Positions 5,449 through 40,409 of a stretch of 43,631 nt of DNA are shown here, in pieces. Under the pieces are notes generated by a model that did not search any database, was not told where the DNA came from, and worked only from the letters and a program-made list of their open reading frames with translations. The DNA comes from a virus, in the IMG/VR virus record IMGVR_UViG_3300008462_000474, positions 1-43,631 of that record. One strand, given 5' to 3'. Made by a program: the position numbers and the translations under genes. The stretch's first letter is position 1; each line of letters opens with the position of its first letter.

Positions 5449-5454
5449 TACTTA
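5449..5454 (-). promoter_or_regulatory. Late-promoter-like motif TAAGTA
   Basis: Preceded by C; 5-base gap to the ATG at 5443. The TAA is also the stop codon of the hub gene (5452-5454). Promoter function is inferred from the recurring motif. Confidence 0.6.
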
Positions 5455-6954
5455 GCCTACATCATCTGAAATAGGCATTCTATCATTAGTATGTAGTTTA
5501 ACCGTATACAAAGTGTTAGTATATTTTTCGTCGGTAAACGTATGAACAATTTTGTTAACATACCACTGACCAAGTAATTTATTATCAAAATTATTAGCGA
5601 TTGTATTTTGATTTTTATCTATCCCTATAAAACAGTTAGCCTGTCTGTAGGTTGTACCCGGCACTGTAAAGGCTAAACTTTGATTTAAAAACAACATACT
5701 TTTTAATAATAAGTTTCTACTATCAGCGTATCGCGCAACTTTGTCTCTTTGAAACGAATACGCTTGCTTAACTATTTTTGCGTCTTTTTTAGTTTTATTT
5801 AATGTTAATGCGGCAGTAGCATTCACCCCTAAACTATCTACATAGGTTTTTTGTATATAGTTTTTAACACTTTCTACTGTATTATCTACAAAGTCTACTT
5901 TAAATGTTTTATTTTTTAAGTCGTTTGAATAACAAGGATAATTTACAAAAAAATTCGTATTAGTATTTGTAGAACTATCTTCAAATTGATAATTTGTAAT
6001 TATACTATTAATATTAGAAAAATATTTTAAATCTGTGCTTTTAGGTATTTGTTGAAAAGACGGAATAATACTGTCATCAGATTGGCTGCTACCTGCTATT
6101 ATAAAATTTTCTCTGTGCAAGACTCCAGTTATAGAACGCTGCTGCACAGCTAATTTAAATAAATTATTGAAAGATTGTAAAAACCAGGTCTTGGTATAAC
6201 GATCTCTATATAATAAACAAGGATCCCCTTCTTGCTGATTGCCTGTTTTTTGGCTAGTGTGTCTATAAAGTAAATATTCTAAATCATCAATAGCATTATT
6301 ATTGGCTAAAGAATTATAAAAAATTTTACTTGCTCCTGTATCCCAACTAGTGCTAAATTTAGAATCTTCTCCTAATACAAACTGTATCAAATTTTTTATA
6401 GCTAAACCTGTAGGTATTTTTTTTTCTTCATCAGTTAGTAAGGACGGTATTAAATTAGAAGGTAAAAGATTATTTGTTGACCAATCTACATTTATTTCTG
6501 AAAATATTTGATAGTCTAATTCCCAAAAATTTAATTGAAGGTATTTGTCTCTTACCGTATTACCGGTAACTATATCTTTTTTATCGTATACTGCGAATAC
6601 AAATTCCATATTATAACTATCTGGCGAAAGTTCCGCATTTGAATGGTCATCTACTATAGGCGCTATTTTAATTGCTATTATATCTCTACCATCATTACGA
6701 AACACATAATTTGCATCTATAGGTACCGTGCCGTCTGGCCTTCTTTCAATTATATTGTCAGGATTGCGTATAACAAGGGTGCCGGTTTTATACCATAATA
6801 ACCCATCATCAATTATTTGTAAATTAACTAAATTCGCTGTGTTTATTGGAAACACCCGGCCATCGGGATTAAGTAAAGAAATATCGACTAAATACTTTTG
6901 ATTGTTATAGTATAAAGTATTTGTAGGTATTGGGGTTATTGTAGATCTGATCAT
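5452..6954 (-). CDS. 27: Baseplate hub protein, gp27-like
   Basis: A 500-residue protein with the pattern of the gp27 / phage late-control D hub family. The early part has strands such as YLVDISLLNPDG and GTLVIRNPD. The C-terminal part (LLGQWYVNKIVHTFTDEKYTNTLYTVKLHTND) is the typical closing barrel motif, with a Trp before a Val-x-x-x-x-His strand and a final Leu-His-Thr-Asn strand. It starts inside the stop of the upstream gp53-like gene (4-base ATGA overlap) and lies next but one to the spike gene, as expected for the trimeric hub that adapts tube to spike. T4 gp27 is about 390 residues; the extra length lies in the middle. Confidence 0.75.
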   Translation of the reverse strand: MIRSTITPIPTNTLYYNNQKYLVDISLLNPDGRVFPINTANLVNLQIIDDGLLWYKTGTLVIRNPDNIIERRPDGTVPIDANYVFRNDGRDIIAIKIAPIVDDHSNAELSPDSYNMEFVFAVYDKKDIVTGNTVRDKYLQLNFWELDYQIFSEINVDWSTNNLLPSNLIPSLLTDEEKKIPTGLAIKNLIQFVLGEDSKFSTSWDTGASKIFYNSLANNNAIDDLEYLLYRHTSQKTGNQQEGDPCLLYRDRYTKTWFLQSFNNLFKLAVQQRSITGVLHRENFIIAGSSQSDDSIIPSFQQIPKSTDLKYFSNINSIITNYQFEDSSTNTNTNFFVNYPCYSNDLKNKTFKVDFVDNTVESVKNYIQKTYVDSLGVNATAALTLNKTKKDAKIVKQAYSFQRDKVARYADSRNLLLKSMLFLNQSLAFTVPGTTYRQANCFIGIDKNQNTIANNFDNKLLGQWYVNKIVHTFTDEKYTNTLYTVKLHTNDRMPISDDVG

Positions 6955-7307
6955 TGCTGCTTTATACTTTGTAATACTTCAGTTACTATACGCGGGTCAA
7001 GTATTTTAAGCACAGTACCCGCTTTAGGAAATTCTATTGGATTGTCAATCTTATTAACACTACATATTAACCACCATAATTGAGGAGTTGCGTATTGTTT
7101 ATTAGAAATATCAGTCCAAGTGATGTTATCATACGGCACGGTGTAAGTTTGAAAATAACTATCAGCTAATACATCCGGAAAGTTTACTGTATTAAGCAAA
7201 TTATAAAAATAAACTTTTTTATCTTTGTAAACATTGAAAAGGTTTTCAAAGTTATACATGTCTAAAGGTTTTAATTCAGGTATATTGTTTTGCTTTTGAG
7301 GGTCCAT
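6951..7307 (-). CDS. 53: Baseplate wedge protein, gp53 / LysM-like
   Basis: A 118-residue protein. The segment YDNITWTDISNKQYATPQLWWLICSVNKIDNPIEFPKAG (split by turns) follows the gp53 pattern: start of a LysM-like fold, then a pairing helix with the Pro-Gln-Leu-(Trp/Tyr)-Trp motif and an Asn before an Asp-Pro turn. T4 gp53 has an equivalent NPQLYWVL segment. It is shorter than T4 gp53 (196 residues) and lacks its C-terminal part. T4 gp53 clips wedge subunits together around the hub. Here it sits between the tube-junction gene and the hub gene in one operon. A LysM-type linker protein of other contractile systems is the alternative. Confidence 0.65.
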   Translation of the reverse strand: MDPQKQNNIPELKPLDMYNFENLFNVYKDKKVYFYNLLNTVNFPDVLADSYFQTYTVPYDNITWTDISNKQYATPQLWWLICSVNKIDNPIEFPKAGTVLKILDPRIVTEVLQSIKQQ

Positions 7308-7316
7308 TTTAATATA

Positions 7317-8762
7317 TTAAGGGCCAAACCGTCCATTAGGAAAACCGCCACGCGGGATAAAAGCGCCTACTGTACCACCACCAGAAACCGGGCTACCAGC
7401 TCCGCCTGTAATGTCTTCTCTTATTTGTCTTTGAGTTACTCCGCTAGCATTTAACGAAGGATCTTGTTCGGCTCGTTCAGCCTTAAATACTTGTACTATA
7501 GTTTCTCCGTCTGCCCATCCAAATAAATTTTGAGTAGTTGTTAACAAGCTTCTAATAGTGAGAGTAACTTTATACGCTTCAGGTATTAATTTAACATTTG
7601 GCCCGCTTTCCGGGGGCACTGTATTGCCCGTTGCTAAATCTATATACCTCGTGGTGCCTTCATTAGTCACCGTTAGCTTTTCTATGTTTGCAACAGGAAA
7701 GCGTTTATAGCCAGGCACTTCAATTTCATAAATACATGGCGGATCTAATAAATTTATACCTCTACGGTTGGGTAAATTTTGATATGTAAGAACATATAAA
7801 AATTCCCAATTGTTTTGAGTTTGTTCTATACTAATTGTATTAAACAAATAGAAAGTTAAAGTAATACTATCTCCAGATTCTGGTGGAGAGTAGCCTTTTA
7901 TTTTTTCTCGGCCAGCACCAGGTTCCCCTCCTAAAGCCGCCGCTTCAACTACACTAGTTATTAAATCAATACCTCCCAGGGCAGCAGCTCCGCCACTTCC
8001 TTTTCCTATCATTTTTCTCGATTGTTCTAATAAATTTGTTATAGGAGCATTTTTACCGGGTTCAGTCCAGCTGGAATTAATACCGGTCATATTATCTATA
8101 CTAATATAAGGCAGTATATAGCTAATTTTTGTAGCTATACCGCTGTATAAATTAGAATAAGGATCTAACGCGTCTTTACCCCCTCTGCTTTTATCTATTT
8201 CTAGTTTAAGTCTACTAGGATCGCTAAACTGGCTGTACGCGTAGGCTCCTAATGCCGTTGTGCCTGCAGCGGCCGCGGCCCCGCCAAATATTTTAGCAAT
8301 TGTTGCTTTGCCTGCTTTAACTTCAGCGGCGCTTCCTGTAAGTGTAGCTCGGGCTAGGCGACCGAGTGGCCCTGGTAGCCGGCTTGCTATACCAGCTGCT
8401 GTATTTGTCAGTTGCCCTAAAAAAGCTTCTCCGCCTGCAATTGCTCCAGCCCCTAAAGCTAATTGAGCTAAAGGATTTTCTACATCTAATCTACCGAGAG
8501 CTTCTTGAAAGCCTCGCGCGCTATTAATATAAGACAAAAGTTCGGCAGAATATTTTAATCTATATTCAGTTAATTTTACTCGAGGTATTAATGACCGAGT
8601 CTTAGGGTTTGAAAGAGTCCAACAAAAATCTTTATGTACATTATATGTAGCTGCAGCTTTGTTATTTTTAGGTACTAAATACCTTGCCCCGTATTCGGAT
8701 TTAGATATAGCAAGATCCGGTATTTCATTTGCATAATCTACTTCTTTAAACCAAGAGGGCAT
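7317..8762 (-). CDS. Baseplate tube-junction protein, gp48/gp54-like, with Gly/Ala-rich insert
   Basis: A 481-residue protein. The C-terminal third (IYEIEVPGYKRFPVANIEKL, then LIPEAYKVTLTIRSLLTTTQN) has the tube-like beta pattern found in gp48/gp54 tail-tube initiators, where an insoluble strand pair ends in an Ile-Pro-x-Ala-Tyr/Trp motif. Residues about 95-185 form an unusual Gly/Ala-rich hydrophobic region (LALGAGAIAGGEAFLGQL, then AAAAAGTTALGAYAYSQF). The tail is Gly/Pro-rich. Position between the tape measure gene and the gp53-like gene matches T4 gene order for 48/54. It starts its own transcription unit, with TAAGTA 5 bases before the ATG. Family assignment is by pattern, not by close similarity. 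Confidence 0.6.
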   Translation of the reverse strand: MPSWFKEVDYANEIPDLAISKSEYGARYLVPKNNKAAATYNVHKDFCWTLSNPKTRSLIPRVKLTEYRLKYSAELLSYINSARGFQEALGRLDVENPLAQLALGAGAIAGGEAFLGQLTNTAAGIASRLPGPLGRLARATLTGSAAEVKAGKATIAKIFGGAAAAAGTTALGAYAYSQFSDPSRLKLEIDKSRGGKDALDPYSNLYSGIATKISYILPYISIDNMTGINSSWTEPGKNAPITNLLEQSRKMIGKGSGGAAALGGIDLITSVVEAAALGGEPGAGREKIKGYSPPESGDSITLTFYLFNTISIEQTQNNWEFLYVLTYQNLPNRRGINLLDPPCIYEIEVPGYKRFPVANIEKLTVTNEGTTRYIDLATGNTVPPESGPNVKLIPEAYKVTLTIRSLLTTTQNLFGWADGETIVQVFKAERAEQDPSLNASGVTQRQIREDITGGAGSPVSGGGTVGAFIPRGGFPNGRFGP

Positions 8763-8767
8763 AATAT

Positions 8768-8773
8768 TACTTA
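8768..8773 (-). promoter_or_regulatory. Late-promoter-like motif TAAGTA
   Basis: Preceded by G; exactly 5 bases before the ATG at 8762. No Shine-Dalgarno sequence in between. Confidence 0.6.
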
Positions 8774-8783
8774 CTACTAAATA

Positions 8784-10714: not shown

Positions 10715-10720
10715 TACTTA
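10715..10720 (-). promoter_or_regulatory. Late-promoter-like motif TAAGTA
   Basis: Preceded by C; exactly 5 bases before the ATG at 10709. Confidence 0.6.
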
Positions 10721-13137: not shown

Positions 13138-13806
13138 TTAACGTCTAAACACTTGCCCTACTGCTTGAGTGGCGCGGGTTAAGCTACGAGCTGTATTAGT
13201 AATTGCGTTAAGTGTACCGAGCAGACCGCCTTGTTGCTGTTTGATTGAACTTCTATCAACTTCGCTTACCCAGTATTGATATGCAATTGTAGCTTTTATT
13301 TCTTGTATACTACCATTACCGGTCATTTTATAATCTATTGCTCCTAGATCAGTAATATAAGCCCCATAAAGACTATATGTACTAATTGTATACATTTGAT
13401 CGTCTAATAAAATTAAATCAATTACATTTTCTGTACCTGGTAAAGTAATATTATTATTTTGACTATTAAAGGGGCTAAATGTATTTGACATCGCACCTTC
13501 TAATCTTTGACGAAGCTCTAATGCTTGGTCTGCGTAAAAAGTTATACTCCAGCTTTCAGAATTAGGATAAGTAGCAGCTCCCGGTACGTTAAAGTTGAGC
13601 CCCATATACGGAGCTTTAATATTTTCTATTCTACGAGAAGGAAGAGCTGCACTTTTAACATATACCAAATCATCTTCACCAAATAAATCTTGCCCGCCAG
13701 CAACAATAAAACTATTAACTCTTAATTGGAAATCTCTAGAAAACTTTTTTTGAGTAGCTACTCTATAAAAGTTTGAAATATTTTGATTAGTCTGATAAGT
13801 TGCCAT
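13138..13806 (-). CDS. Tail tube protein paralogue (gp19 family)
   Basis: A 222-residue gp19-type protein closely related to the major tube protein at 14648. Shared elements in order: FYR(V)A near the start, FSRDFQLRV, EDDLVYVKSAALPSRRI, YMGLNFNVPGAATYPNS, SWSITFYAD, LYGAYITDLGAIDYKM and TIAYQYW. A 45-residue extra C-terminal tail (GGLLGTLNAITNTARSLTRA) is absent from the major protein and is predicted helical. It may form a specialised ring at one end of the tube. It opens a transcription unit with TAAGTA 8 bases before the ATG. Confidence 0.85.
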   Translation of the reverse strand: MATYQTNQNISNFYRVATQKKFSRDFQLRVNSFIVAGGQDLFGEDDLVYVKSAALPSRRIENIKAPYMGLNFNVPGAATYPNSESWSITFYADQALELRQRLEGAMSNTFSPFNSQNNNITLPGTENVIDLILLDDQMYTISTYSLYGAYITDLGAIDYKMTGNGSIQEIKATIAYQYWVSEVDRSSIKQQQGGLLGTLNAITNTARSLTRATQAVGQVFRR

Positions 13807-13814
13807 CTTAATAA

Positions 13815-13820
13815 TACTTA
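13815..13820 (-). promoter_or_regulatory. Late-promoter-like motif TAAGTA
   Basis: Preceded by C; 8 bases before the ATG at 13806. Its TAA is the stop codon of the upstream tube paralogue (13818-13820). Confidence 0.55.
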
Positions 13821-14594
13821 GGCTGTACCTGCTAGGTTAGGGTTTATTTGATTATTTACCGGTACAGCTGAACGCAATGTGTTTTTTATTAAAGCTGTAG
13901 TTTCATTAGAACCAATATATTGAAACGCAAATGTTGTAGTTATAGAAGCTATACCGCCTGCAGTGGTAGTATTATAAGCTATATCTCCGAGATTTATCGG
14001 AAAACAACCATACAGTTTATAATCTCTTACCGGCTGCATATTAAAAATATCTATTCTATCCTGTTTAGATCTTTTGTCTTTTATTTCTCTGTTTCCTCTT
14101 TCTAATTTACCCGCTCCTAACTGCACTGGTTTGTATAACGTTAAAGTTATATCCGTATGAGCGGTTTGATTAGATTTAAATCCGTGCTCATTATAAACTT
14201 GTTGACTCCAATACTCAAATATGTCTTTAATTAGATAGGTATCGTCGGAGTAAAAAGTAAGAGCCCAATTTAAAGAACTAGGGTAAGATGCTGCAATTGG
14301 TACGTTAAAGCTAAAATTTTTATAGTTTAATTTAGCCGTACTTATTTTTCTACTTGGTATACTACCTGCTTTTACATAAAGTAACTTACTTGGTGTAAAA
14401 AATCTGTTAATAGCTCTTTCTCCAGTTTGTAACTCTTTTATATTAGTTATATTAGTTACTCTAAATAAATTGTCTTTTGCAAACCCTAGCCGTTGAGCTG
14501 CTTGATAAAAGCCTTTTAAAGAATCGTCTGAGACAGATCCTCGTAACGGAGTTTCGTTTACTACAAATGGGGGCAGCTTAACAATATCAGCCAT
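13818..14594 (-). CDS. Tail tube protein paralogue (gp19 family), longer variant
   Basis: A 258-residue gp19-type protein. It keeps FYQAAQRLGFAKDNLFRVT, LLYVKAGSIPSRKI, FSFNVPIAASYPSS, WALTFYSDD, FEYWSQQVYNEHG, DYKLYGCFPINLGDIAYN and TTFAFQYI. Compared with the major tube protein it has a 20-residue N-terminal extension, a charged insert of about 25 residues (GKLERGNREIKDKRSKQDR) and a polar C-terminal tail. Insertions at loop positions suggest a terminal or junction ring rather than the repeating tube. It lies just after the terminator that follows the major tube gene and has its own TAAGTA 5 bases before the ATG. Confidence 0.82.
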   Translation of the reverse strand: MADIVKLPPFVVNETPLRGSVSDDSLKGFYQAAQRLGFAKDNLFRVTNITNIKELQTGERAINRFFTPSKLLYVKAGSIPSRKISTAKLNYKNFSFNVPIAASYPSSLNWALTFYSDDTYLIKDIFEYWSQQVYNEHGFKSNQTAHTDITLTLYKPVQLGAGKLERGNREIKDKRSKQDRIDIFNMQPVRDYKLYGCFPINLGDIAYNTTTAGGIASITTTFAFQYIGSNETTALIKNTLRSAVPVNNQINPNLAGTA

Positions 14595-14599
14595 ACAGA

Positions 14600-14605
14600 T
14601 ACTTA
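14600..14605 (-). promoter_or_regulatory. Late-promoter-like motif TAAGTA
   Basis: Preceded by A; exactly 5 bases before the ATG at 14594. It sits just downstream of the terminator of the tube gene, restarting transcription for the baseplate genes. Confidence 0.6.
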
Positions 14606-14617
14606 TCTCTGTACATT

Positions 14618-14640
14618 AAAAAACCCCCTTACGGGGGTTT
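14618..14640 (-). terminator. Rho-independent terminator after the major tail tube gene
   Basis: On the minus strand, stem AAACCCCC / GGGGGTTT with a 4-base loop (GTAA), followed by a run of six T including the stem end. It is 8 bases past the stop of the tube gene (14648). The plus strand lacks an equally long T run, so it mainly acts on the sheath-tube transcript. Confidence 0.88.
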
Positions 14641-14647
14641 GTGAGTT

Positions 14648-15169
14648 TTATTCGTGGCGCCAGTAGTGGTATGCTAGCGTTGCATTAAACGTTAGTGGTG
14701 TACCAGTACCTGCAACATTATATGCTACATTTCCTAAAGATACTACATAAACCCCGTATAATTTATACGTATTAACTATTTGTAATTTATCATCTACAAG
14801 GTTTAACTGAATTACTTTATCAACTCCGCGTGGAGATAAATCTCCAGTACTCGTAGCATCATCAAAAACTTTACCGATTTGCCAGTCTTCGAATTTTTTA
14901 CGAATGACCCCGTTTTTATCATTACGGAACGTCACAGCCCAAGCGTTACTACCTGGATACTTTACTGTACCCGGCACATTAAAGTCAAGCCCCATATAAG
15001 TTGCGGTTTGATTACTAATAGTGCGGTCAGGAAGATTAGCGGTGGTAATATAAACGAAATCGTCTTCGTTGAATGTATCTTCCCCGATAGAGACTACCCG
15101 TAACATATAGTCACGGGCAAAGTCTCTAGCTTGGGATACCCGAAAGAAGTCTTGTATTGTTTGAGCCAT
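14648..15169 (-). CDS. 19: Major tail tube protein (gp19-like)
   Basis: A 173-residue protein, close to T4 gp19 (163). Elements in order: FFRVSQARDFARDYMLRV, DDFVYITTANLPDRTI, YMGLDFNVPGTVKYPGS, WAVTFRND, KKFEDWQIG, LYGVYVVSLGNVAYN and a final ATLAYHYW. The Leu-Pro turn, the Asn-Val-Pro-Gly loop and the closing Tyr-x-Tyr-Trp are typical of the family. It is the shortest and cleanest of the tube-fold set, directly follows the sheath gene and is followed by a strong terminator, as expected for the abundant tube subunit. TAAATA lies 6 bases before the ATG. Confidence 0.92.
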   Translation of the reverse strand: MAQTIQDFFRVSQARDFARDYMLRVVSIGEDTFNEDDFVYITTANLPDRTISNQTATYMGLDFNVPGTVKYPGSNAWAVTFRNDKNGVIRKKFEDWQIGKVFDDATSTGDLSPRGVDKVIQLNLVDDKLQIVNTYKLYGVYVVSLGNVAYNVAGTGTPLTFNATLAYHYWRHE

Positions 15170-15175
15170 ATTGAA

Positions 15176-15181
15176 TATTTA
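15176..15181 (-). promoter_or_regulatory. Late-promoter-like motif TAAATA
   Basis: Preceded by C; 6 bases before the ATG at 15169. It gives the tube gene its own start signal besides readthrough from the sheath gene. Confidence 0.6.
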
Positions 15182-15189
15182 GGTTAAAC

Positions 15190-17448
15190 TTAGCTTATTA
15201 ACTCTTGGAAGTTTTGAGATGTTCTTGTGCAGTAGAAGTTGACCAAGATAAATTCGGCAGTACGAACTGGCTTGATATAAATGTCTACTACTAAAGTATT
15301 ATCATCAATTAACTCTGGAGTGTTGTTTGTAGTATTGCATACAATTAAGTAATCGAATAAGCCTTGAGTGTTCTTAGCAAGATCAAATACCGGGGTAATT
15401 GTATTAACTAAACGGCTACGAGTAAATGTAGTGTTTGGCTCGAATACGAAGAATTTAGCTGTATTAAACACAGACTTTTCTAAGTAGAGGAACAGACGGC
15501 GTACATTTAGACGATCAAATGCGCTTGGAGCTTTGAGTAAGGTCTTTTGACCCATTATTGTGTATCCTTCGTTAGGGAAGAACACTACTGGGTTTACAGA
15601 CACCTTATAGAGTAAGTCGCGTTGCTTTTGCTGAGGATTTACACCAAGGTCATTAATACCAGTAATAGTACCACGATTTAAACCTGCAGGCGCGCCCCAA
15701 GGGTAAGCAATTGCATCATTACGACTAAACGCTGCAGCTGCAAAACCAGAAAATGGCAACCAAACGTTTTTGTTTGTGTATTGATCAGTTGCTCTTGCCC
15801 AGTTACCGTAAGTTGTAGAGTAACTCGAATTTAAGTTACTATAAAGGTTACGCAATGGCCAGTAAATGTTTTGAGAGAAGTTTTTGCTCTTGTCATCTAA
15901 GGTCTTAAAGTTTTGACCTTGTACGAATACCCAACGTAACGGATCAGAAATGAATACTAAGTCTTTACGTTCATTTCTTGCAAAATTATCAAACTTTGTT
16001 GTAATGCCTACCCAAGCATTTACTGTATCGTTTGATACCGCATTACCAGTTGAGGATGTTAAGGCCTGTACGTTGGTTTTTAATGAGCCGCTCCAGTAGG
16101 TATCATCAAATGCAGCAGAACCAGCCGCTGCGATTGTTGAAATACCACCGTCAATTACTACATCAAGACTTAACGTGTCTGGGTTTTGAGCAAGATTCAA
16201 TATCTTGTCAACTTTAGTACTTACGTTGCCTACTACTTTTTGATTTTCTGTACCAAGTGTAGGAGAGTAAACCCCAAGAGCGTATAGGTTATTTGCAGCA
16301 GCGTGTCCACCGCCTGAAGCCGTATTGAATATACTTGAAGTAGATCTTAATACTCTTATAGCTTTATTAGCATTACCGTTACTATCTAACCAAGATGTAT
16401 TATCAGCGATATTTGGATTTACAAATATAGTTAAATTTGGGGAGGTATTATTTACAAGAGTGTTTATAAAATAGCTTTGTGGCTGGCCCCCGTTTGGATC
16501 TTGAATTTTGCGATCAGAATAGAACGAACCTGTATAGCCTTCTTGTAGTACGTATTCGAGAGTTAAAGCTGTAGGAGAGAAAGGCGAAACTCTTACTTTA
16601 AATAATGAAAATATCGCAGTATCTTGATACGCGGTGCCAGCTATATTAAACGAAGGAATATTTTCAATATCTTGAGAAACACTACCTACATTAGCAGTTG
16701 CAGTTGCACTTAGCTGAAACTGGTAACGAGTATTTGGTACTGCAGTGTATGCGCTGGTAGCAGCTGTTTGGGCTGCAATTGTATCGATTGTTAAAGCTGC
16801 ATCAAAATCAGTAGAAGGATTTAAGTTAGCATTATCTGCAAGATTAAAATAAAACCCTTCAAATTTTTCGTTAATTGTGGTTTTTGCTTTATTGAGCACA
16901 ATTAAACCAGCTGCACTTAATTCAGTAAAGCCTGTAAATACAGGCGCTGTACTTGCTGCTGCAGTTGCCCATTGTAGACCGCCTTGTAATACTAAATTGT
17001 ATTGGTCATCTGTAAGCTCAACTAATGTTGGTTGAGTTAAGTAGTAAGCACCAGCAGCGCTTAGTGCGGTGCCGTTTGCTACTGGAGCAGTTGCATCTGT
17101 TGCAGATGCTGCAACTACTGGAAATACTAACGCACTATACTTGCTAGAAAATCCTTCCCCAGCTTCAGCACCGTAAGGTAAGCGAGCGACATTTACAACT
17201 GCATTTGTGCCACCGGTAAAAAGCTGTCTTACAGAGTAGTAAAAATAGCGCTCTGCTGCATTGGTAGGAGTACCATATATTGTCTCAAAATCAGCAACAC
17301 TTGCTACGTTAAGAATTTCGTAGGTTGGACCTTGAGGCGCGAAACCGGTCACCAAGAAGCTTGTACCATTAGGAGCATTAAGTCTTGTGCTAAGATCGAT
17401 TTCGCGAATTTCTACGCCAGGAGATTGTATAGTACGAGTGTTGGCCAT
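15190..17448 (-). CDS. 18: Tail sheath protein (gp18-like)
   Basis: A 752-residue contractile sheath protein (T4 gp18: 659). The N-terminal arm reads SPGVEIREIDLSTRLNAPNG and then FLVTGFAPQGPTYE, the classic sheath opening. The C-terminal domain has the conserved run LRWVFVQGQNFKTLDDKSKN, then YPWGAPAGLNRGTI, INDLGVNPQQKQRDLLY, NEGYTIMGQKTL and RLNVRRLFLYLEKS, ending in the arm strand LVNFYCTRTSQNFQEL. Residues about 110-420 are a variable, surface-exposed insertion rich in Ala/Thr/Ser. The TAAATA motif lies 18 bases before the ATG, the longest gap among the genes carrying it, which would leave a short untranslated leader. Confidence 0.95.
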   Translation of the reverse strand: MANTRTIQSPGVEIREIDLSTRLNAPNGTSFLVTGFAPQGPTYEILNVASVADFETIYGTPTNAAERYFYYSVRQLFTGGTNAVVNVARLPYGAEAGEGFSSKYSALVFPVVAASATDATAPVANGTALSAAGAYYLTQPTLVELTDDQYNLVLQGGLQWATAAASTAPVFTGFTELSAAGLIVLNKAKTTINEKFEGFYFNLADNANLNPSTDFDAALTIDTIAAQTAATSAYTAVPNTRYQFQLSATATANVGSVSQDIENIPSFNIAGTAYQDTAIFSLFKVRVSPFSPTALTLEYVLQEGYTGSFYSDRKIQDPNGGQPQSYFINTLVNNTSPNLTIFVNPNIADNTSWLDSNGNANKAIRVLRSTSSIFNTASGGGHAAANNLYALGVYSPTLGTENQKVVGNVSTKVDKILNLAQNPDTLSLDVVIDGGISTIAAAGSAAFDDTYWSGSLKTNVQALTSSTGNAVSNDTVNAWVGITTKFDNFARNERKDLVFISDPLRWVFVQGQNFKTLDDKSKNFSQNIYWPLRNLYSNLNSSYSTTYGNWARATDQYTNKNVWLPFSGFAAAAFSRNDAIAYPWGAPAGLNRGTITGINDLGVNPQQKQRDLLYKVSVNPVVFFPNEGYTIMGQKTLLKAPSAFDRLNVRRLFLYLEKSVFNTAKFFVFEPNTTFTRSRLVNTITPVFDLAKNTQGLFDYLIVCNTTNNTPELIDDNTLVVDIYIKPVRTAEFILVNFYCTRTSQNFQELIS

Positions 17449-17466: not shown

Positions 17467-17472
17467 TATTTA
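17467..17472 (-). promoter_or_regulatory. Late-promoter-like motif TAAATA
   Basis: Preceded by C; 18 bases before the sheath ATG at 17448, an outlier in spacing. No clear Shine-Dalgarno sequence follows it. Confidence 0.5.
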
Positions 17473-17498: not shown

Positions 17499-18083
17499 TT
17501 ACTGAAGTAATTCGGCGCCTAATTGACTGAAAGCAAAAGTAAAACTTGACTCAATTTGAGTAGCGTCTTGGTAGCTATATTTAAACCCTTGCAGATTTGT
17601 AATAAATGCTTTATGGTAATCAAATTTAATTTTCTGATTATTATATTCATCTAAGCCAAAAACAGTAATCAGGGTCTGATATTCATGCATTGTAGCAGGG
17701 CCTTTTACTGCAAGCCCGTCTTTATTTGATATACCCATTTTGGAATGATTAATATAATCAAGCCACTTCCATAAAACCCACCAGTTATTATATCCGTTAT
17801 CTACCGCAAAATTAACTGTAACATTGTTATATTGCTCTCTTTGGTAAGTGGTGACTTTTAACGGCTGCCCGCCAAAATTTAATGCAACTGGATTTATTGC
17901 TATATCTGGCACAATATTGCCGTATACTGAATACTGTAAAGTATTTAAATCCAAATTATAACTTTTACGAACATCTCCTACTGGAGTATTTATAGACTTT
18001 AAAGGGTCAGGAATATTTAAGACAAGTATAAATTTGTCTTTTCTTGATTTATTTAAAATAGACTGTTGGGCTACGTCGCTCAT
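17499..18083 (-). CDS. Tail tube-fold structural protein
   Basis: A 194-residue protein with tube-like features: KFILVLNIPDPLKSI, LQYSVYGNIVPDIAIN, a GGQPLKVTTYQREQYNNVTV strand pair, a Trp-rich helix (NNWWVLWKWLDYIN) at the place of the gp19 FxDW helix, then HEYQTLITVFGLDE, KAFITNLQGFKYSY and a closing strand SSFTFAFSQLG. It is more diverged than the three clear gp19 paralogues. Its ATG overlaps the stop of the nucleotidyltransferase gene (ATGA), and it precedes the sheath gene. A tail-terminator or neck-proximal tube ring is possible by position. The fold call rests on strand pattern only. Confidence 0.6.
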   Translation of the reverse strand: MSDVAQQSILNKSRKDKFILVLNIPDPLKSINTPVGDVRKSYNLDLNTLQYSVYGNIVPDIAINPVALNFGGQPLKVTTYQREQYNNVTVNFAVDNGYNNWWVLWKWLDYINHSKMGISNKDGLAVKGPATMHEYQTLITVFGLDEYNNQKIKFDYHKAFITNLQGFKYSYQDATQIESSFTFAFSQLGAELLQ

Positions 18084-19138
18084 TTACCTTCTTTACTTAG
18101 GTAGTAATATTTATACACCGGATCAAAAGCAAGAGATATACCACTTGTACTTAAGCTTCTAGGCTCGTTATGTACTTTATCTAAATTAATACTATAAAAA
18201 GTTGCTATGGCGTTAGCTATATTTGGCGGTATATGAGTTTTTCCTTTTTTCTTTTTCTTTAAATTTTCTATAGCCGGAAAAGGGGTTTCTTGGTCAATAT
18301 GAGACCGCGCAACCATTGTTACAGACTTAGTGCTAGGTTTAGTTAATTTACTAACCCCGGCAGTTAAGCCTTGATGTCGTGGACCTCTGCTACCTTCGCC
18401 TCCAGTAGACATACCTGGTAACGCAAAAAACTGTTTAAAATTTTCTTGATTAAGAGACAGCTCTTTATCTCCTTTTGCTACCACACCAGTAACGAGTTTA
18501 TCTATCATACCACGCCGCCTTAATTCTTTAAAAGCTAAATTTTCTACAGAGAATTCTCCGCCGGCTTCGAGGCCGGCTTGTCTCATTTTTAATATTTTTT
18601 CTTTAACTCTTTCTGCACATTCTAAATTACAACTGTCACTTAAAGCATGGCTAATTAATTCAAGTATATGATCAACTTTTCGTTTAACCTCTGACTGATT
18701 AATTGGTTTTTCTTTTTCCGGTACTATTAACCACGAATCGTTTTTAATAGAATATACACCGGTTGCGTAATGTTGTTCGTTAATGTCTTGTACGTAGCAC
18801 TCTACATCAAAACCTTTTATTTTTATATCATGGTTGCTATTCCAAACAGTCTTTTTAGCTTTAAAATAATCTTTTAAAAAGTCTACATCCTGACCGTATT
18901 CAGTTAAATCAGTTAGTATATGTAGATCTATATCACTTTGAGGCGTATAATTATAATTTGCTAAAGAACCAGTAAACGTAATATCCTCTACATCAATATC
19001 TAACTCGAAAGACTCTAAAAATGCTTCTGCTACTTGTAGTAGTTTATCTTTTATAGCCGGAATAAGCTTACCGTCTCTCCATACTAATGGATTAAGAGTG
19101 TCATGATATTGAAAAGTAAGCTTTGCAGATGGTTCCAT
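18080..19138 (-). CDS. Nucleotidyltransferase-fold protein (DNA polymerase beta-like)
   Basis: A 352-residue protein whose N-terminal 115 residues carry the nucleotidyltransferase signature: FTGSLANYNYTPQSDIDLHI (Gly57-Ser58, then Asp69-x-Asp71) with a third acidic strand FDVECYVQD (Asp111, Glu113). These are the residues expected to bind metal and the triphosphate. Residues 150-215 are helical (KRKVDHILELISHALSD), and the C-terminal part is basic (NLKKKKKGKTHIPP). The substrate cannot be told: the fold covers tRNA, antibiotic and protein nucleotidylation enzymes. It heads the operon with the tube-fold and sheath genes, so it is expressed with virion genes. TAAATA lies 10 bases upstream within a palindrome shared with the divergent gene. 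Confidence 0.75.
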   Translation of the reverse strand: MEPSAKLTFQYHDTLNPLVWRDGKLIPAIKDKLLQVAEAFLESFELDIDVEDITFTGSLANYNYTPQSDIDLHILTDLTEYGQDVDFLKDYFKAKKTVWNSNHDIKIKGFDVECYVQDINEQHYATGVYSIKNDSWLIVPEKEKPINQSEVKRKVDHILELISHALSDSCNLECAERVKEKILKMRQAGLEAGGEFSVENLAFKELRRRGMIDKLVTGVVAKGDKELSLNQENFKQFFALPGMSTGGEGSRGPRHQGLTAGVSKLTKPSTKSVTMVARSHIDQETPFPAIENLKKKKKGKTHIPPNIANAIATFYSINLDKVHNEPRSLSTSGISLAFDPVYKYYYLSKEGK

Positions 19139-19144
19139 GTAACG

Positions 19145-19150
19145 TAAATA
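19145..19150 (+). promoter_or_regulatory. Late-promoter-like motif TAAATA
   Basis: Preceded by G; 8 bases before the ATG at 19159 of the flavodoxin-fold gene. Confidence 0.5.
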
Positions 19151-19154
19151 TTTA
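19149..19154 (-). promoter_or_regulatory. Late-promoter-like motif TAAATA
   Basis: Preceded by G; 10 bases before the ATG at 19138 of the nucleotidyltransferase gene. Confidence 0.5.
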
Positions 19155-19158
19155 CGTA

Positions 19159-19899
19159 ATGCCTGACTATTTAAAACTCTTCGAAGATATAGTTAACACT
19201 AATAATCCTGATATTTACCAGGAAAAACTTAACAATGCTATCGAATACCTTAAGAAAAAAGAAAAGGTATTATTTTTAACAACTTCCAATCGTTGGGAAG
19301 GAGATAAAGAAAAACCCAAGAGCACTATTTTAGCAGAGTTTATTAAATCCAAAGTGGGAGATAATGTAGAAATTATCGATGTTGCCAAACTTAACATTTA
19401 TATTTGCGAAGGTAACGTAAGCAAATCAGACGGCAATAATTGCGGGGTAAAAGACTCGGTATTGAAAGATAAAGAAAAAAATCCGAGTGGTAATCATAGA
19501 TGCTGGTGTTCAATTAATAATAAAGATGATGAACTATGGAAAATAAGTAAGCCACTCTTTGAGTCTGATGCAGTAGTATTTTTTGTAAGTGTGCGCTGGG
19601 GTCAAACTAATAGTGTATATCAAAAACTAATTGAACGTTTAGATTGGATAGAAAATAGACATACCACTCTTAAAGAAGATAATATTGTAGAAAATATTGA
19701 TGCGGGTATTATAGCTATAGGTCAAAACTGGAACGGTGAAACAGTTATTGACACTCAAAAGAAAGTATTAGACTTTTATGGGTTCAAAGTACCAGAAGAA
19801 CTTAGCTTTAACTGGCAATACACAAAAGACTCGGCAGATGAATCTCAAGAAAGTTATAAAAAAGCATTAAGCGCTTTTAAGAAAGTATTTGGACTTTAA
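19159..19899 (+). CDS. Flavodoxin-fold NAD(P)H-dependent oxidoreductase
   Basis: A 246-residue protein from the ATG at 19159. A longer start at 19123 exists but would run through the divergent gene start and the palindrome. After a 30-residue helical lead comes the first strand and phosphate loop VLFLTTSNRWEGDKEKPKST, then VEIIDVAKLNI, and the strand DAVVFFVSVRWGQTNSVYQK followed by LIERLDWIENR, the flavin-contacting part of the FMN_red/flavodoxin_2 type. A Cys/His-containing loop (NHRCWCSI) is unusual. Late segments include AGIIAIGQNW. Such enzymes reduce flavins or quinones. It is a single plus-strand gene between minus-strand genes and ends 3 bases from the opposing gene's stop, with no terminator seen. 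Confidence 0.75.
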   Translation: MPDYLKLFEDIVNTNNPDIYQEKLNNAIEYLKKKEKVLFLTTSNRWEGDKEKPKSTILAEFIKSKVGDNVEIIDVAKLNIYICEGNVSKSDGNNCGVKDSVLKDKEKNPSGNHRCWCSINNKDDELWKISKPLFESDAVVFFVSVRWGQTNSVYQKLIERLDWIENRHTTLKEDNIVENIDAGIIAIGQNWNGETVIDTQKKVLDFYGFKVPEELSFNWQYTKDSADESQESYKKALSAFKKVFGL

Positions 19900-20658: not shown

Positions 20659-20664
20659 TAAATA
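20659..20664 (+). promoter_or_regulatory. Late-promoter-like motif TAAATA
   Basis: Preceded by G; exactly 5 bases before the ATG at 20670. It supports that ATG as the terminase start rather than the one at 20637. Confidence 0.6.
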
Positions 20665-23559: not shown

Positions 23560-23565
23560 TATTTA
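23560..23565 (-). promoter_or_regulatory. Late-promoter-like motif TAAATA
   Basis: Preceded by C; 8 bases before the ATG at 23551. Confidence 0.55.
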
Positions 23566-23595: not shown

Positions 23596-23601
23596 TAAAT
23601 A
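23596..23601 (+). promoter_or_regulatory. Late-promoter-like motif TAAATA
   Basis: Preceded by G; exactly 5 bases (all T) before the ATG at 23607. It supports that ATG over the in-frame ATG at 23544. Confidence 0.6.
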
Positions 23602-23606: not shown

Positions 23607-24593
23607 ATGTCAATAGCGAAGTACTGTGTAGATACGGGCTACTATATTGCCCCTTCAGTTACCACTGGTAATACAGAATGCCTCTCAGGGGACCTTCGCT
23701 ATTTGGATATAAGCAAAACAGATACAGAACGTAATCTTTGGGAAAATTGGTGGGATGAACAAATACGGCAATATGGTATGCGTACTAGCTACTATATAAA
23801 TGCTTATACTCTTTCTGGACACGACTTTTTCTACGGAGAACAGCCTTTAGCTGGATTTCTTCCGCCGTTAAGCGTGGTAATGTGTCTTACTGTTAATAAT
23901 GATAGTATTATATTAAGTAAATTTGGTATACAAGGTAATGCGGATATTACAGCGGTTGTTTCTATTAAAGCATTTACCTCTTCTTTAACTGCATCTTCTT
24001 TAAGCGGCATAACATCTAGATATACATATGAACCTAAAGCAGGGGATTTAATTGAATTATCCGAATATGGTACTACTCGTCCAAACGGAAGAAGCGGGCA
24101 AATATATGAAATAACAGAACGAGTTGATCAAAGAGGTGGAGAAGCTAATCAATTAATGGGGCATTATGTTTGGATGATAAAAGGTAAACGTTATGATTAT
24201 ACCTTTGAACCTAATGCCCCACGAGAAGCTCTTAGCAAACAGGTATTTGATAATAAATACGATGGAATTGTGCCTCTTGATACCGGAACTCCTGGAGCGG
24301 ATGCTCGCATTATTGAAACCAAAGCATATTCTCAAAATGTGGATAAGCAAGGTAGAACAGTTGTGTATAATTACCAACAAAATACTAATGCTCCGCTTTC
24401 TGGATACTTAACATATGACGGCACTGATCCTAAAACTGGCCGACCAAATACCGGGGTGTATGGGGCGTATGATGATGGTGGTACTTTAGTAAATCTATAC
24501 GCAGGCGGCGGCGCTCATACCCCAAGCGCAAGTGCGCTTGGTTCTAATAATAGTGAAAATACATATCTCGGACTTCGTAGTCCTAATAACTAA
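23607..24593 (+). CDS. 14: Neck / head completion protein (gp14-like)
   Basis: A 328-residue protein from the ATG at 23607. Residues 45-135 parallel T4 gp14: an opening like GMRTSYYINAYTLSGHDFFYGE (T4: GIEMYYVPREYVNLDTLFGED), then SKFGIQGNADITAVVSI (T4: SKFGMQVDDEVTLSI) and EPKAGDLIEL (T4: EPKEGDLIYF), followed by a strand IYEITERVD. The C-terminal 90 residues are Gly/Asn/Thr-rich and extend past T4 gp14 (256 residues). T4 gp14 closes the filled head together with gp13 for tail joining. I see no gp13 gene in this window. Its stop TAA is part of the promoter-like motif of the following fiber gene. Confidence 0.82.
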   Translation: MSIAKYCVDTGYYIAPSVTTGNTECLSGDLRYLDISKTDTERNLWENWWDEQIRQYGMRTSYYINAYTLSGHDFFYGEQPLAGFLPPLSVVMCLTVNNDSIILSKFGIQGNADITAVVSIKAFTSSLTASSLSGITSRYTYEPKAGDLIELSEYGTTRPNGRSGQIYEITERVDQRGGEANQLMGHYVWMIKGKRYDYTFEPNAPREALSKQVFDNKYDGIVPLDTGTPGADARIIETKAYSQNVDKQGRTVVYNYQQNTNAPLSGYLTYDGTDPKTGRPNTGVYGAYDDGGTLVNLYAGGGAHTPSASALGSNNSENTYLGLRSPNN

Positions 24594-24596
24594 ATA
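24591..24596 (+). promoter_or_regulatory. Late-promoter-like motif TAAATA
   Basis: Preceded by C; 7 bases before the ATG at 24604. Its TAA is the stop codon of the neck gene. Confidence 0.55.
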
Positions 24597-29033: not shown

Positions 29034-29039
29034 TAAATA
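29034..29039 (+). promoter_or_regulatory. Late-promoter-like motif TAAATA
   Basis: Preceded by G; 9 bases before the ATG at 29049 and 2 bases after the stop of the first fiber gene. Confidence 0.5.
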
Positions 29040-34759: not shown

Positions 34760-34760
34760 C

Positions 34761-35456
34761 ATGGCAACAAACTATTCTCCAAGAGTAGTAACCGATGGCT
34801 TAGTGATGTGTTTAGATGCTGGTAATCAAAAAAGCTATTCAGGATCTGGTACTGCTTGGAATGATTTAAGCTTTACAGGTAACAATGCAACTTTAGTTAA
34901 TGGACCGACTTACAGTGGTGCAAATGGCGGAGCAATTACTACTGATACTGTTGATGATTATATTTCAGTTAATAATAGCTCTTCTTTACAATTAACAACT
35001 GGCTTTACAGTTGGTATGTGGGTTAAGTTTAATAATGCTATAGGGGTATCTTACAAAAATCTTATAGGAAAACCTACATATACTAAGTACGGAATAATTA
35101 TTGAGTGGTATGGTAATAATCCGTTATTACCAGATTTTATTTCAACAGGAGGCGCAAGAAATACTGGACCCGGGCTACTTTATCCTTCATTAACTAATTG
35201 GAATTATGTAGTACACTCTTACGATAAAAACGGAGGCGCCAATAACCAACGATTTCATGTATGGCATTCAGGAACATATACCAGCGCATATGCTACGCCC
35301 GGTGCGCTTAATATAGAAACATCGACAGACCCTCTTTATATAGGAGGAGCCGGAGCTGGTTTAACAATAAGTTGCGTGTGGGTTTATAATCGTGGTATAA
35401 CTAATAATGAAGTACTACAAAATTACAACGCAACTAGATCTCGCTTTGGATTATAA
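34761..35456 (+). CDS. LamG / concanavalin-like lectin-fold protein 1
   Basis: A 231-residue protein of the phage LamG (jelly-roll) type. The N-terminal signature is PRVVTDGLVMCLDAGNQKSY with SGSGTAWNDL, followed by the domain strands TDTVDDYISVNNSS, FTVGMWVKFNN and ISCVWVYNRGI, and the typical end NNEVLQNYNATRSRFGL. It has a good Shine-Dalgarno site (GGAGG) and starts 1 base after the stop of the giant fiber, so it is translated from the same mRNA. LamG folds bind sugars or act as fiber tips, so a receptor-binding or decoration role is likely. It is the first of five related genes. Confidence 0.82.
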   Translation: MATNYSPRVVTDGLVMCLDAGNQKSYSGSGTAWNDLSFTGNNATLVNGPTYSGANGGAITTDTVDDYISVNNSSSLQLTTGFTVGMWVKFNNAIGVSYKNLIGKPTYTKYGIIIEWYGNNPLLPDFISTGGARNTGPGLLYPSLTNWNYVVHSYDKNGGANNQRFHVWHSGTYTSAYATPGALNIETSTDPLYIGGAGAGLTISCVWVYNRGITNNEVLQNYNATRSRFGL

Positions 35457-35459: not shown

Positions 35460-35729
35460 ATGTACAGCGCTCGTGAATTCATGATAATAAATTCTTCTCA
35501 AATCAGCGCTGTTGATTTTGAGCAAGTTTTAGAAACATCTCCAGAAACTTTAAGGTATTCTGTTGACAAATCACTAACCCTTTTTAAATGGGACAATAAT
35601 AAAACTAATGGTATCCCTTCAAGTATTGCTAATATACCTAGCGAGTATAAACAAGGGCCTTATAACTACGAAGAAATGATGATAGAGTTAAACTCTCCTG
35701 TCTGGACCCAGCCTACATCAGGTATATAA
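35460..35729 (+). CDS. Small protein in LamG cassette (fiber-associated, unknown)
   Basis: An 89-residue acidic protein; an alternative start at 35481 would give MIINSSQISAVDFEQV. Features: VDFEQVLETSPETLRYSVDKS, a LFKWDNN strand, PSEYKQGPYNYEEMMIEL and a closing Trp (SPVWTQP). Small genes with this kind of Tyr-x-x-Glu-Glu-Met helix and final Trp commonly neighbour fiber genes in T4-like phages, but the function is unknown. It could be a fiber assembly helper. Its stop TAA is the first half of the promoter-like motif of the next LamG gene. Confidence 0.65.
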   Translation: MYSAREFMIINSSQISAVDFEQVLETSPETLRYSVDKSLTLFKWDNNKTNGIPSSIANIPSEYKQGPYNYEEMMIELNSPVWTQPTSGI

Positions 35730-35732
35730 GTA
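35727..35732 (+). promoter_or_regulatory. Late-promoter-like motif TAAGTA
   Basis: Preceded by A; exactly 5 bases before the ATG at 35738. Its TAA is the stop codon of the small gene before it. Confidence 0.58.
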
Positions 35733-35737
35733 ATAAT

Positions 35738-36439: not shown

Positions 36440-37143
36440 GTATATTTGGAGGGCCTAAAGTTGTTACTGACAATTTAATACTTTGCTTGGATGCAGGTAA
36501 TAAAAAAAGCTATCCTGGTTCTGGTACTGTATGGTACGATTTAACTCCAAACAATAATAATTTTAATATAATTGCTACCGCATATAATGCAGCAGGTTAT
36601 ATGGACTTTAACGGGGCATACGGTTGTGCTAAAAATAGTACAGATATATCTTTATCCGATGCTACTGGTGTAACGTATCATATTGTTACTCGAGTTAAAA
36701 ATTCGACTGCTGAATGGAGAACTCTTACTCGCTCCTACGATGCCGATCACCAAGTCATTATAGAAAGCGGCGGTTGGAATATAGGTATGTATGATAATAA
36801 TGGTGCCGGGTTCTTAGGTACAGGTTTTTCCCAGCAAAATTTACCAGGCAACGGCACTACCACCTGGATACAAATATACTGGAGGTGGCAGTCCTCTTCT
36901 CCGTATTATCAATTTAGTTACAATGACTCTCCTACAGTAACTAGAGGTACCATTGCTGACGCTAATTCTAGATACAATAGAGGTTTTGGATCTTTAGGGG
37001 CTTATCATAATGGTAGTACTGACCCTGCTAATTCGTCTCAGTACTGGGGAGATATAGCATACTTTGCGGCTTATAATAGGTTTTTAAATAATTCAGAACT
37101 ACTTCAAAATTATAATGCATTAAAAGGAAGGTTTAAACTATGA
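36436..37143 (+). CDS. LamG / concanavalin-like lectin-fold protein 3 (GTG start)
   Basis: A 235-residue LamG paralogue with a GTG start overlapping the previous stop. Opening: GGPKVVTDNLILCLDAGNKK, then SYPGSGTVWYDL. Domain strands: VTYHIVTRVKNSTAEWRTL, QVIIESGGWNIGMYDN and TTWIQIYWRWQSSSPYYQFS. It ends ELLQNYNALKGRFKL. The AAAGGAAGG codons of the LKGR end lie 8 bases before the ATG of the next small gene (ATGA overlap). GTG with a strong upstream Shine-Dalgarno site indicates that translation depends on coupling. Confidence 0.8.
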   Translation: MSIFGGPKVVTDNLILCLDAGNKKSYPGSGTVWYDLTPNNNNFNIIATAYNAAGYMDFNGAYGCAKNSTDISLSDATGVTYHIVTRVKNSTAEWRTLTRSYDADHQVIIESGGWNIGMYDNNGAGFLGTGFSQQNLPGNGTTTWIQIYWRWQSSSPYYQFSYNDSPTVTRGTIADANSRYNRGFGSLGAYHNGSTDPANSSQYWGDIAYFAAYNRFLNNSELLQNYNALKGRFKL

Positions 37144-37331: not shown

Positions 37332-37972
37332 GTATAGCCGGCGGCCCAAAAATAGTTACAGATGGCCTAGTACTATACTGGGATATGGCTGAACCTGACT
37401 GCTACCCGGGGTCCGGTACTACTATATACGATTTATGTCGTAATTATGACGGCACTCTTTTTAATTCTCCTACTTTTTCAAGAGCTAACGGTGGTATATT
37501 AACATTTAATGGTAGTAGTAGTTATGTAACTGGTACCACTGCTAATTTTTCTACTACAAATTGCACGGTCATGGGTGCTGCAAAATATAACGGGTCGAAT
37601 GGCCGTATGATAAACGGCGCCAACAATAACTGGTTGATGGGCCATTGGGGTAATTCAGTAGGTAATTTTTACGCAGAAGGCTGGATAACCGGGGTGGGGG
37701 CCGGTGGTACCGATAATAACTGGAAAATATATACTACTTTAAATAATTATAGTTCTGATTCTTGGGGATTTTATATTAATGGTGCTCCAAATACTTTGGC
37801 CAGCACAGGCGGATCTCAGGGACCGAACGGTATTGCTATAGCAAGATATAACCCAGGAGCTACAGAATACTCAGATGGCAGCTTTTCTTTTTTAATGATT
37901 TACAATAGACTATTAAATGCATCTGAAATATTACAAAATTATAACGCTTTAAAAGGACGGTTTAATATATGA
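37328..37972 (+). CDS. LamG / concanavalin-like lectin-fold protein 4 (divergent)
   Basis: A 214-residue LamG protein, the shortest and most diverged of the set. The opening motif is GGPKIVTDGLVLYWDMAEPD (CYPGSGTTIYDL follows), with DMAEPD where the others have DAGNxK. Strands: GGILTFNGSSSYVTG, CTVMGAAKYNG and DSWGFYINGAPN, and it ends EILQNYNALKGRFNI. The AAAGGACGG codons of the LKGR end lie 8 bases before the next ATG, with a 4-base overlap. No separate promoter-like motif. Confidence 0.8.
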   Translation: MSIAGGPKIVTDGLVLYWDMAEPDCYPGSGTTIYDLCRNYDGTLFNSPTFSRANGGILTFNGSSSYVTGTTANFSTTNCTVMGAAKYNGSNGRMINGANNNWLMGHWGNSVGNFYAEGWITGVGAGGTDNNWKIYTTLNNYSSDSWGFYINGAPNTLASTGGSQGPNGIAIARYNPGATEYSDGSFSFLMIYNRLLNASEILQNYNALKGRFNI

Positions 37973-38685: not shown

Positions 38686-38689
38686 ACTA

Positions 38690-38695
38690 TAAATA
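38690..38695 (+). promoter_or_regulatory. Late-promoter-like motif, full TATAAATA
   Basis: TATAAATA at 38688-38695 equals the T4 late promoter octamer. The ATG at 38702 follows after 6 bases, so a T4-like start site would lie 1 base before the AUG. Confidence 0.65.
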
Positions 38696-38701
38696 TATAC
38701 A

Positions 38702-40141: not shown

Positions 40142-40144
40142 CAA

Positions 40145-40150
40145 TAAATA
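40145..40150 (+). promoter_or_regulatory. Late-promoter-like motif TAAATA
   Basis: Preceded by A; 7 bases before the TTG at 40158. Confidence 0.45.
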
Positions 40151-40157
40151 GTAAGGC

Positions 40158-40388
40158 TTGGCTAACTTAAAGGAAAGTTTTTTTAGTTTATCTGAAACTC
40201 TAATCAATACTATTAGAGTGTATAAAGAACGTGGCGCTGTAATAGCAGAAGAAAGTAAGCAAGAAACGCGTATTAAACAATGTATAAATTGCGCGGATTT
40301 TATAGAAGGTAGATGTAATAAATGTGGTTGTTTTATGAATGTAAAAGTAAGATTAGAAGCTGCAAAATGCCCGGTAGGTAAATGGTAA
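40158..40388 (+). CDS. Small zinc-ribbon-like protein (TTG start)
   Basis: A 76-residue protein. TTG at 40158 is the only sensible start, as the next in-frame ATG would lose the Cys motif. The N-terminal 40 residues are helical (SETLINTIRVYKERGAVIAE). The C-terminal half has six Cys: CINC (42, 45), then C53, C56, C58 and C71, with the pattern CxxC-x7-CxxCxC and an end ECP-like AKCPVGKW. This arrangement fits a small metal-binding ribbon common in marine T4-like phages. Function is unknown. It lies between two fiber-related genes and starts under a TAAATA motif. Confidence 0.72.
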   Translation: MANLKESFFSLSETLINTIRVYKERGAVIAEESKQETRIKQCINCADFIEGRCNKCGCFMNVKVRLEAAKCPVGKW

Positions 40389-40403
40389 ACCAAGCTTTCG
40401 CAG

Positions 40404-40409
40404 TAAATA
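40404..40409 (+). promoter_or_regulatory. Late-promoter-like motif TAAATA
   Basis: Preceded by G; 6 bases before the ATG at 40416. Confidence 0.58.

Follow-up and report, generated by a model that had tools for sequence, protein, structure and literature searches.

A probable T4-type late promoter adjoining the start codon in a lineage of T4-like phages, with predicted leaderless late mRNAs

Late transcription in phage T4 is a textbook system in which the promoter core lies well upstream of the start codon, and IMG/VR virus record IMGVR_UViG_3300008462_000474 raises the question of whether such a core can sit so close to a gene that promoter and translation start become one element. The window analysed here is the whole 43,631-base record, treated as a genome fragment, and it encodes structural proteins of a divergent T4-type myovirus. 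A preliminary description of the window had reported TAAATA or TAAGTA (together TAARTA) just upstream of eighteen gene starts, and had interpreted these hexamers as T4-type late promoters from which leaderless mRNAs are predicted; the checks made since, all on sequence, largely favour that interpretation. It is very probable that TAARTA is a T4-type late promoter used by the phage sigma factor gp55 and that the start codon lies on, or close behind, the first transcribed base (+1), so that the late mRNAs would be leaderless or nearly leaderless.

Position of the motif relative to start codons

Gaps are given as the number of bases between TAARTA and the start codon. Among the 35 gene starts of the window, on both strands, 18 have the motif at a gap of at most 18, and every position listed for them in the preliminary description was correct, as were its gap classes: seven starts at gap 5, three at gap 6, seven at gaps 7–10 and the tail sheath gene at gap 18 (Table 1). 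Seventeen starts have the motif at gaps 4–12, against a mean of 0.9 and a maximum of 5 when the upstream 40-mers were shuffled 2000 times, and the seven at exactly gap 5 compare with a shuffle maximum of 3. At two of these starts, 19159 (which has the motif) and 20622 (which lacks it), an ATG further into the frame than the first was chosen by eye; when the first ATG is taken mechanically throughout, 16 of 35 starts have the motif at gaps 4–12. The preliminary interpretation would have been refuted by a motif equally common before internal ATGs; it is far from that, being found at 2 of 112 in-frame and 8 of 378 out-of-frame ATGs versus those 16 of 35 starts. The whole window holds 102 motif sites, versus 174 expected from shuffles.

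The same spacing recurs in 12 related IMG/VR contigs, in which starts were taken as the first ATG of open frames of at least 80 codons, called without regard to the motif (records G012 and G014–G019 lie outside this whole-contig set). Across the window and these 12 relatives, the motif stands at gaps 4–12 before 25–52% of first ATGs, versus 0.2–2.0% of internal in-frame and 0.1–2.1% of out-of-frame ATGs. The window and 11 relatives were also pooled, yielding 818 deduplicated first-ATG starts; one contig, G004, was left out after its smeared distribution appeared. In the pool, gaps 0, 1, 2, 3 and 4 account for 3, 3, 1, 1 and 1 starts (9 in total), gap 5 for 108, and gaps 6–11 for 69, 32, 18, 20, 19 and 12, respectively; 284 starts have the motif at gaps 4–12 and 209 of these at gaps 5–7. 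In a broader collection of 677 non-redundant starts, drawn from 159 loci that overlap the pooled contigs and include copies of the window, 18 starts lay at gaps 0–4 and 118, 69, 25, 17 and 17 at gaps 5–9 (246 in total); in this collection other permutations of TAAATA peaked near the start only where they overlapped the motif itself. First-ATG calling favours gaps divisible by three (0, 3, 6, 9), because the TAA of the motif is then an in-frame stop, and the excess at gap 5 is therefore no artefact of the method. TAAGTA makes up 30% of the pooled gap-5 sites. The C or G described in front of the motif is a feature of the window (15 of 18 sites) but not of the pooled family, where A is commonest.

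The motif as a T4-type late promoter

That TAARTA is a T4-type late promoter is well supported. Names could be given to 107 of the 818 pooled genes via homologues from annotated phages, and these were labelled early or late according to the class of their counterparts in T4. The motif was present at gaps 4–12 in 48 of 72 late structural genes, in none of 32 early genes (replication, repair and gp55) and in 0 of 3 copies of uvsW; the contrast between late and early genes has p = 7e-12, with the qualification that related contigs are not independent. One early gene, the gp55 of G008, has the motif at gap 19.

The form of the sites points the same way. A -35 signal was absent from 120 gap-5 starts (at most 0.09 bits anywhere from -50 to -20), and T4 late promoters are likewise described as having no -35 element (PMC2988020). 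The T4 late core, TATAAATA, is placed at -13 to -6 (PMC1524935), and late cores given for other phages include NATAAATA in S-PM2 and CTAAATA in Aeh1 (PMC1524935, PMC2984593). In the family, TAARTA itself matches by selection, while the two bases before it are not fixed (A 42–51%, T 20–28%); the first T of the core is reported to be poorly conserved in other T4-like phages too (PMC1524935).

The family resembles T4 in the TAAATA that forms the last six bases of TATAAATA, the missing -35 element, an AT-rich stretch just downstream, late specificity and the presence of gp55 and gp45 homologues in some of its members, and it resembles Aeh1 and the cyanophages S-PM2 (NATAAATA) and S-CRM01 in combining the same core with free upstream bases; the C before the core in the CTAAATA of Aeh1 is also seen at many window sites. 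Unlike T4, it has gaps of 5 or slightly more, no Shine-Dalgarno excess and frequent TAAGTA, and gp33 was not found in it. In a 49-kb stretch of T4, by contrast, 12 of 13 motif starts lie at gaps 12–35 and one at gap 1, with Shine-Dalgarno-like words at 63% of starts, and 49-kb stretches of S-CRM01 (14–25, plus two at 38), Aeh1 (18–39) and S-PM2 (28–35) also have longer gaps than the family.

Of the sigma and co-activator genes named in the preliminary description as worth seeking, gp55 and gp45 were found and gp33 was not. Among 20 records (the window and 19 related contigs), gp55 homologues occur in four and gp45 homologues in six, none of the latter in the window fragment. Two family gp55s tried singly match the T4 gp55 of PDB 7d7c (E 4e-9 and 1e-5), as does an alignment of eight gp55 sequences, four of them annotated gp55s, and a conserved central block is common to the family and annotated proteins. 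The gp55s of G003, G004, G006 and G008 carry a lysine-rich N-terminal extension, long in the first three and shorter in G008, and the C-terminus of these four is unlike that of cyanophage gp55.

Predicted leaderless late mRNAs and their alternatives

Leaderless or nearly leaderless late mRNA is strongly predicted from the geometry of these sites. If the core is placed as in T4, from -13 to -6, the sixth base after it (motif+6) would be +1. In six leadered phages (T4, S-CRM01, P-RSM4, Syn9, Aeh1 and OC) motif+6 is a purine at 60 of 62 sites and is the most purine-rich of eleven positions (next 48 of 62); these six were picked after eight had been viewed, and with pf16 and AG-345-E02 included the count is 70 of 80. 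This scoring omitted OLIVR5, SP-9-14, phiM12 and S-PM2. In the family, motif+6 at gap 5 is the A of the ATG, and of the 32 gap-7 sites 29 have a purine there, A in 27 of them. Among in-frame candidate codons, the motif stands at gap 5 before 108 of 817 ATG, 10 of 78 GTG and 0 of 117 TTG, many of the GTG and TTG candidates not being true starts; a gap-5 peak for GTG and none for TTG fits a purine at +1. The base before the ATG is T in 84% of gap-5 starts versus 47% of starts without the motif. The abrupt lower limit at gap 5 would be expected if a smaller gap dropped the AUG from the RNA.

In the mechanism that we propose, TAARTA would act as a -10-like core read by the host RNA polymerase together with the phage gp55 sigma, and the first base transcribed would be, as in T4, the sixth one downstream of the core. 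An mRNA from a gap-5 site would begin with the A of the AUG, while gaps 6–12 would leave a leader of about 1–7 nucleotides, which is not enough to hold a Shine-Dalgarno site. TAARTA-N5-ATG would then be a 14-base module combining promoter and translation start, with ribosomes presumably entering at the leaderless end. Roughly two in three of the late genes that could be recognised would possess their own promoter, and abutting or overlapping genes presumably share the transcript of their neighbour.

The ATGs concerned look like real starts, because the N-terminus of the sheath is conserved, resembling those of Mosig, P-RSM4 and HTVC008M, and because a small residue is more often second at starts with gaps 5–7 (144 of 209) than at starts lacking the motif (204 of 467); in the window the second codon encodes Ala, Pro or Ser in 16 of 18 motif starts, as had been described. 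The described absence of Shine-Dalgarno sites at motif starts also holds in the window (9% versus 6% background), where the gene at 34761, close behind its neighbour, has GGAGG. Across the window and 12 relatives, Shine-Dalgarno-like words reach 5–11% versus 4–13% background. They are found at 43–66% of starts in T4, OC, OLIVR5, SP-9-14, Aeh1, pf16, Mosig and HTVC008M, at 38% in phiM12, at 16–27% in S-CRM01, Syn9, AG-345-E02 and P-RSM4, and at 1 of 36 in S-PM2 (all control phages except Mosig and HTVC008M being represented by single chosen stretches of about 49 kb).

The pelagiphages HTVC008M and Mosig have gap-5 sites like those of the family, and their other late genes have a longer leader with a Shine-Dalgarno site. 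Among 176 starts of the cultured pelagiphage HTVC008M, 11 have the motif at gap 5, four at gaps 6–8 and none at gaps 9–17, and at gaps 18–28 seven of nine starts have a Shine-Dalgarno-like word (judged by eye). The gap-5 genes include 13944–16007 and 18392–18916 on the minus strand and those at 19456, 31132, 49760 and 75830, while the genes at 36520 and 46310 have gap 18. Such words occur at 1 of 13 starts at gaps 5–7 versus 89 of 163 others (p = 0.001), and this phage seems to combine both late-gene styles, near-zero leader and leadered. In Mosig, 6 of 165 starts are at gap 5. Fifteen late promoters have been published for Melnitz, a relative of the pelagiphages (PMC9004378), and a pelagimyophage study describes the results of published late-promoter methods as unsatisfactory (PMC7029224). 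We regard it as probable that the whole T4-like lineage sampled here has fused the late promoter with the translation start, such that most promoter-bearing late structural genes would be leaderless or near-leaderless via gp55 and Shine-Dalgarno initiation would have been abandoned, with the pelagiphages intermediate.

Several observations weigh against the mechanism proposed above. The distribution in G004 is blurred (5 starts at gaps 0–4, 4 at gap 5, 7 at gap 6 and 21 at gaps 7–13), even though the gp55s of G004 and G003 share 84% identity. HTVC008M also has eight motifs at gaps 0–4, and Melnitz is mostly leadered, with gap 5 at 1 of 64 starts in 49 kb. The purine signature is weak or absent in pf16 (3 of 7) and AG-345-E02 (7 of 11); within the family, the sixth base at gap 6 is A or T with equal frequency, and at gaps 8–25 motif+6 is modestly enriched in purines (77 of 115, with 68 of 115 at the next-highest position). 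The lack of Shine-Dalgarno sites is by itself no marker of leaderless mRNA, because leadered cyanophages score low too. gp55 was not found in the window contig, a fragment, or in 15 of the 19 other records. gp33 was found in 0 of 20 records by PHROG 254, a profile that matched nowhere and so shows little, and in 0 of 10 family records by PF16805 versus 2 of 2 pelagiphages, and a small home-made profile gave a best weak hit of E 0.26; because the protein is short and records may be incomplete, these searches do not establish that gp33 is absent.

The alternative that survives best, although improbable, accepts a true T4-type late promoter and supposes that most late mRNA comes from upstream promoters or from processing, such that ribosomes would usually meet a leader, the leaderless form being minor. 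The genes are tightly spaced and read-through is to be expected, some of the late 5' ends mapped in T4 may result from processing (PMC2988020), and the sheath gene has a gap of 16–18 in 3 of 10 contigs, namely the window, G005 and G009 (16 in both relatives), with gap 5 in G001, G003, G006 and G010, gap 6 in G007 and G013, and gap 7 in G008. Read-through nevertheless leaves the jump from 1 to 108 starts between gaps 4 and 5 unexplained. In addition, of 42 divergent pairs whose starts lie at most 80 bases apart, 13 carry the motif on each side, with starts 18–28 bases apart in the tightest four, and there no same-strand gene lies immediately upstream.

Gene spacing also bears on how the promoter is distributed. 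The preliminary description placed nearly all genes lacking the motif within 15 bases of an upstream gene. In the pool the motif is scarce where genes overlap (7 of 170) or lie 0–4 bases apart (7 of 103), a rate of 4–7%, compared with 48 of 72 genes at 5–11 bases. By distance behind the same-strand neighbour, the motif at gaps 4–12 is found in 67% of genes at 5–19 bases, 56% at 20–39, 48% at 40–79 and about 20% beyond. Of the 209 motif genes that follow another gene on the same strand, 48 have a motif whose TAA also terminates that preceding gene.

A host-type promoter element in place of a gp55 promoter is less likely still. In its favour, TAARTA is AT-rich and resembles a bacterial -10. T4 early genes use the host sigma, and none of the 32 early homologues has the motif at gaps 4–12, one of them, the gp55 of G008, having it at gap 19. 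The core moreover equals the late core of T4, Aeh1 and cyanophages (PMC1524935, PMC2984593), and the -35 signal is missing.

It appears very unlikely that the motif is a translation signal of a host without Shine-Dalgarno sites, like the adenines that precede start codons in Bacteroidetes. Such a signal would suit the tight spacing to the start codon; Flavobacterium is reported to use A at -3, -6, -12 and -13 (PMC6847099), and A is frequent before motif-less starts of the family too (51% at -3). Early genes also need translation, yet have no motif at gaps 4–12 in the 32 cases, the signal is an exact hexamer and not a composition, and in leadered T4-like phages the same core is found about 12–40 bases ahead of the start codon. 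That the pattern arises by chance in AT-rich DNA, or from upstream genes ending in TAA, can be counted as refuted: stops do account for the TAA in the 48 genes mentioned, but with these removed gap 5 still holds 86 starts and gap 4 one, first ATGs far exceed internal and out-of-frame ATGs, and the calling bias towards gaps 0, 3, 6 and 9 works against a peak at 5.

If the gp55 promoter does adjoin the start codon in this way, replication-coupled late transcription would be tied to another way of initiating translation, and the hosts would be ones whose ribosomes accept leaderless mRNA. The spacing would also allow gene starts and late promoters to be called by a simple rule across many uncultured phages, and the cultured HTVC008M offers a direct test system. 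Among the matches listed from the open-licence literature, outside which most subscription journals fall, there was no report of leaderless T4-type late genes. The novelty would lie in the T4-type late system and not in leaderless phage mRNA as such, because a paper on phage AR9 already notes briefly that leaderless transcripts are common among phages, AR9 itself having leaders of 26–491 nucleotides (PMC5312081). The transcripts predicted for the family would be like mycobacterial leaderless mRNAs, which have a 5'-terminal start codon and no Shine-Dalgarno site (PMC4633059). The late promoter TATG of phiKZ similarly places an ATG-like string at the start site of a late phage promoter; unlike the family, phiKZ uses a phage-encoded polymerase and starts transcription at the G (PMC4666361), and an AUG there would therefore be missing from the RNA.

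Motif–start pairs and gene content of the window

Table 1 Positions of TAARTA motifs and the start codons that follow them in the window.
Motif	Position	Strand	Gap	ATG	Remark
TAAGTA	5449..5454	-	5	5443	motif TAA doubles as stop of upstream gene
TAAGTA	8768..8773	-	5	8762	
TAAGTA	10715..10720	-	5	10709	
TAAGTA	13815..13820	-	8	13806	tail tube family gene
TAAGTA	14600..14605	-	5	14594	tail tube family gene
TAAATA	15176..15181	-	6	15169	tail tube family gene
TAAATA	17467..17472	-	18	17448	tail sheath; longest of the 18 gaps
TAAGTA	18094..18099	-	10	18083	tail tube family gene
TAAATA	19145..19150	+	8	19159	second ATG of frame; half of divergent pair
TAAATA	19149..19154	-	10	19138	other half of divergent pair
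TAAATA	20659..20664	+	5	20670	terminase large subunit
TAAATA	23560..23565	-	8	23551	
TAAATA	23596..23601	+	5	23607	head closure Hc2-like
TAAATA	24591..24596	+	7	24604	1475-aa gene
TAAATA	29034..29039	+	9	29049	
TAAGTA	35727..35732	+	5	35738	
TAAATA	38690..38695	+	6	38702	tail-fibre-like gene
TAAATA	40404..40409	+	6	40416	weak tail-fibre match

The products recognised in the window comprise the tail sheath, terminase large subunit, head closure, baseplate hub, collagen-like fibres and four members of the tail tube family. Its sheath and terminase are less than 60% identical to the records that match them in the 'phages' collection (2591 and 2524 records, respectively), and the best matches there include Pelagibacter phage Mosig, for the sheath, and cyanophages. 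Rfam at gathering thresholds gave no match in the window, and neither psbA (PF00124) nor ribosomal S21 (PF01165) was matched in any of 12 family records. A T4-like terminase at 777–2522 of locus L254 is 44% identical to that of the window and lies on a contig of a metagenome-assembled genome binned as Verrucomicrobia (54% G+C in the part fetched); this single relative is too weak for a host to be named.

The four tail tube family genes (PHROG 45) lie near the single sheath gene, at 13138–15169 and 17499–18083, and more than one such gene is also present in several relatives. A gene at 201–1157 resembles a phage dehydrogenase family (PHROG 9582) and is without the late motif. Positions 18080–19138, flanked by a tail tube gene on one side and the divergent promoter on the other, encode a predicted nucleotidyltransferase domain (PF01909; PHROG 36119). 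The divergent promoter itself is the palindrome CGTAAATATTTACG at 19138–19159, which provides a late-promoter core on each strand for two divergent genes with start codons 20 bases apart, and similarly compact divergent pairs occur in the relatives.

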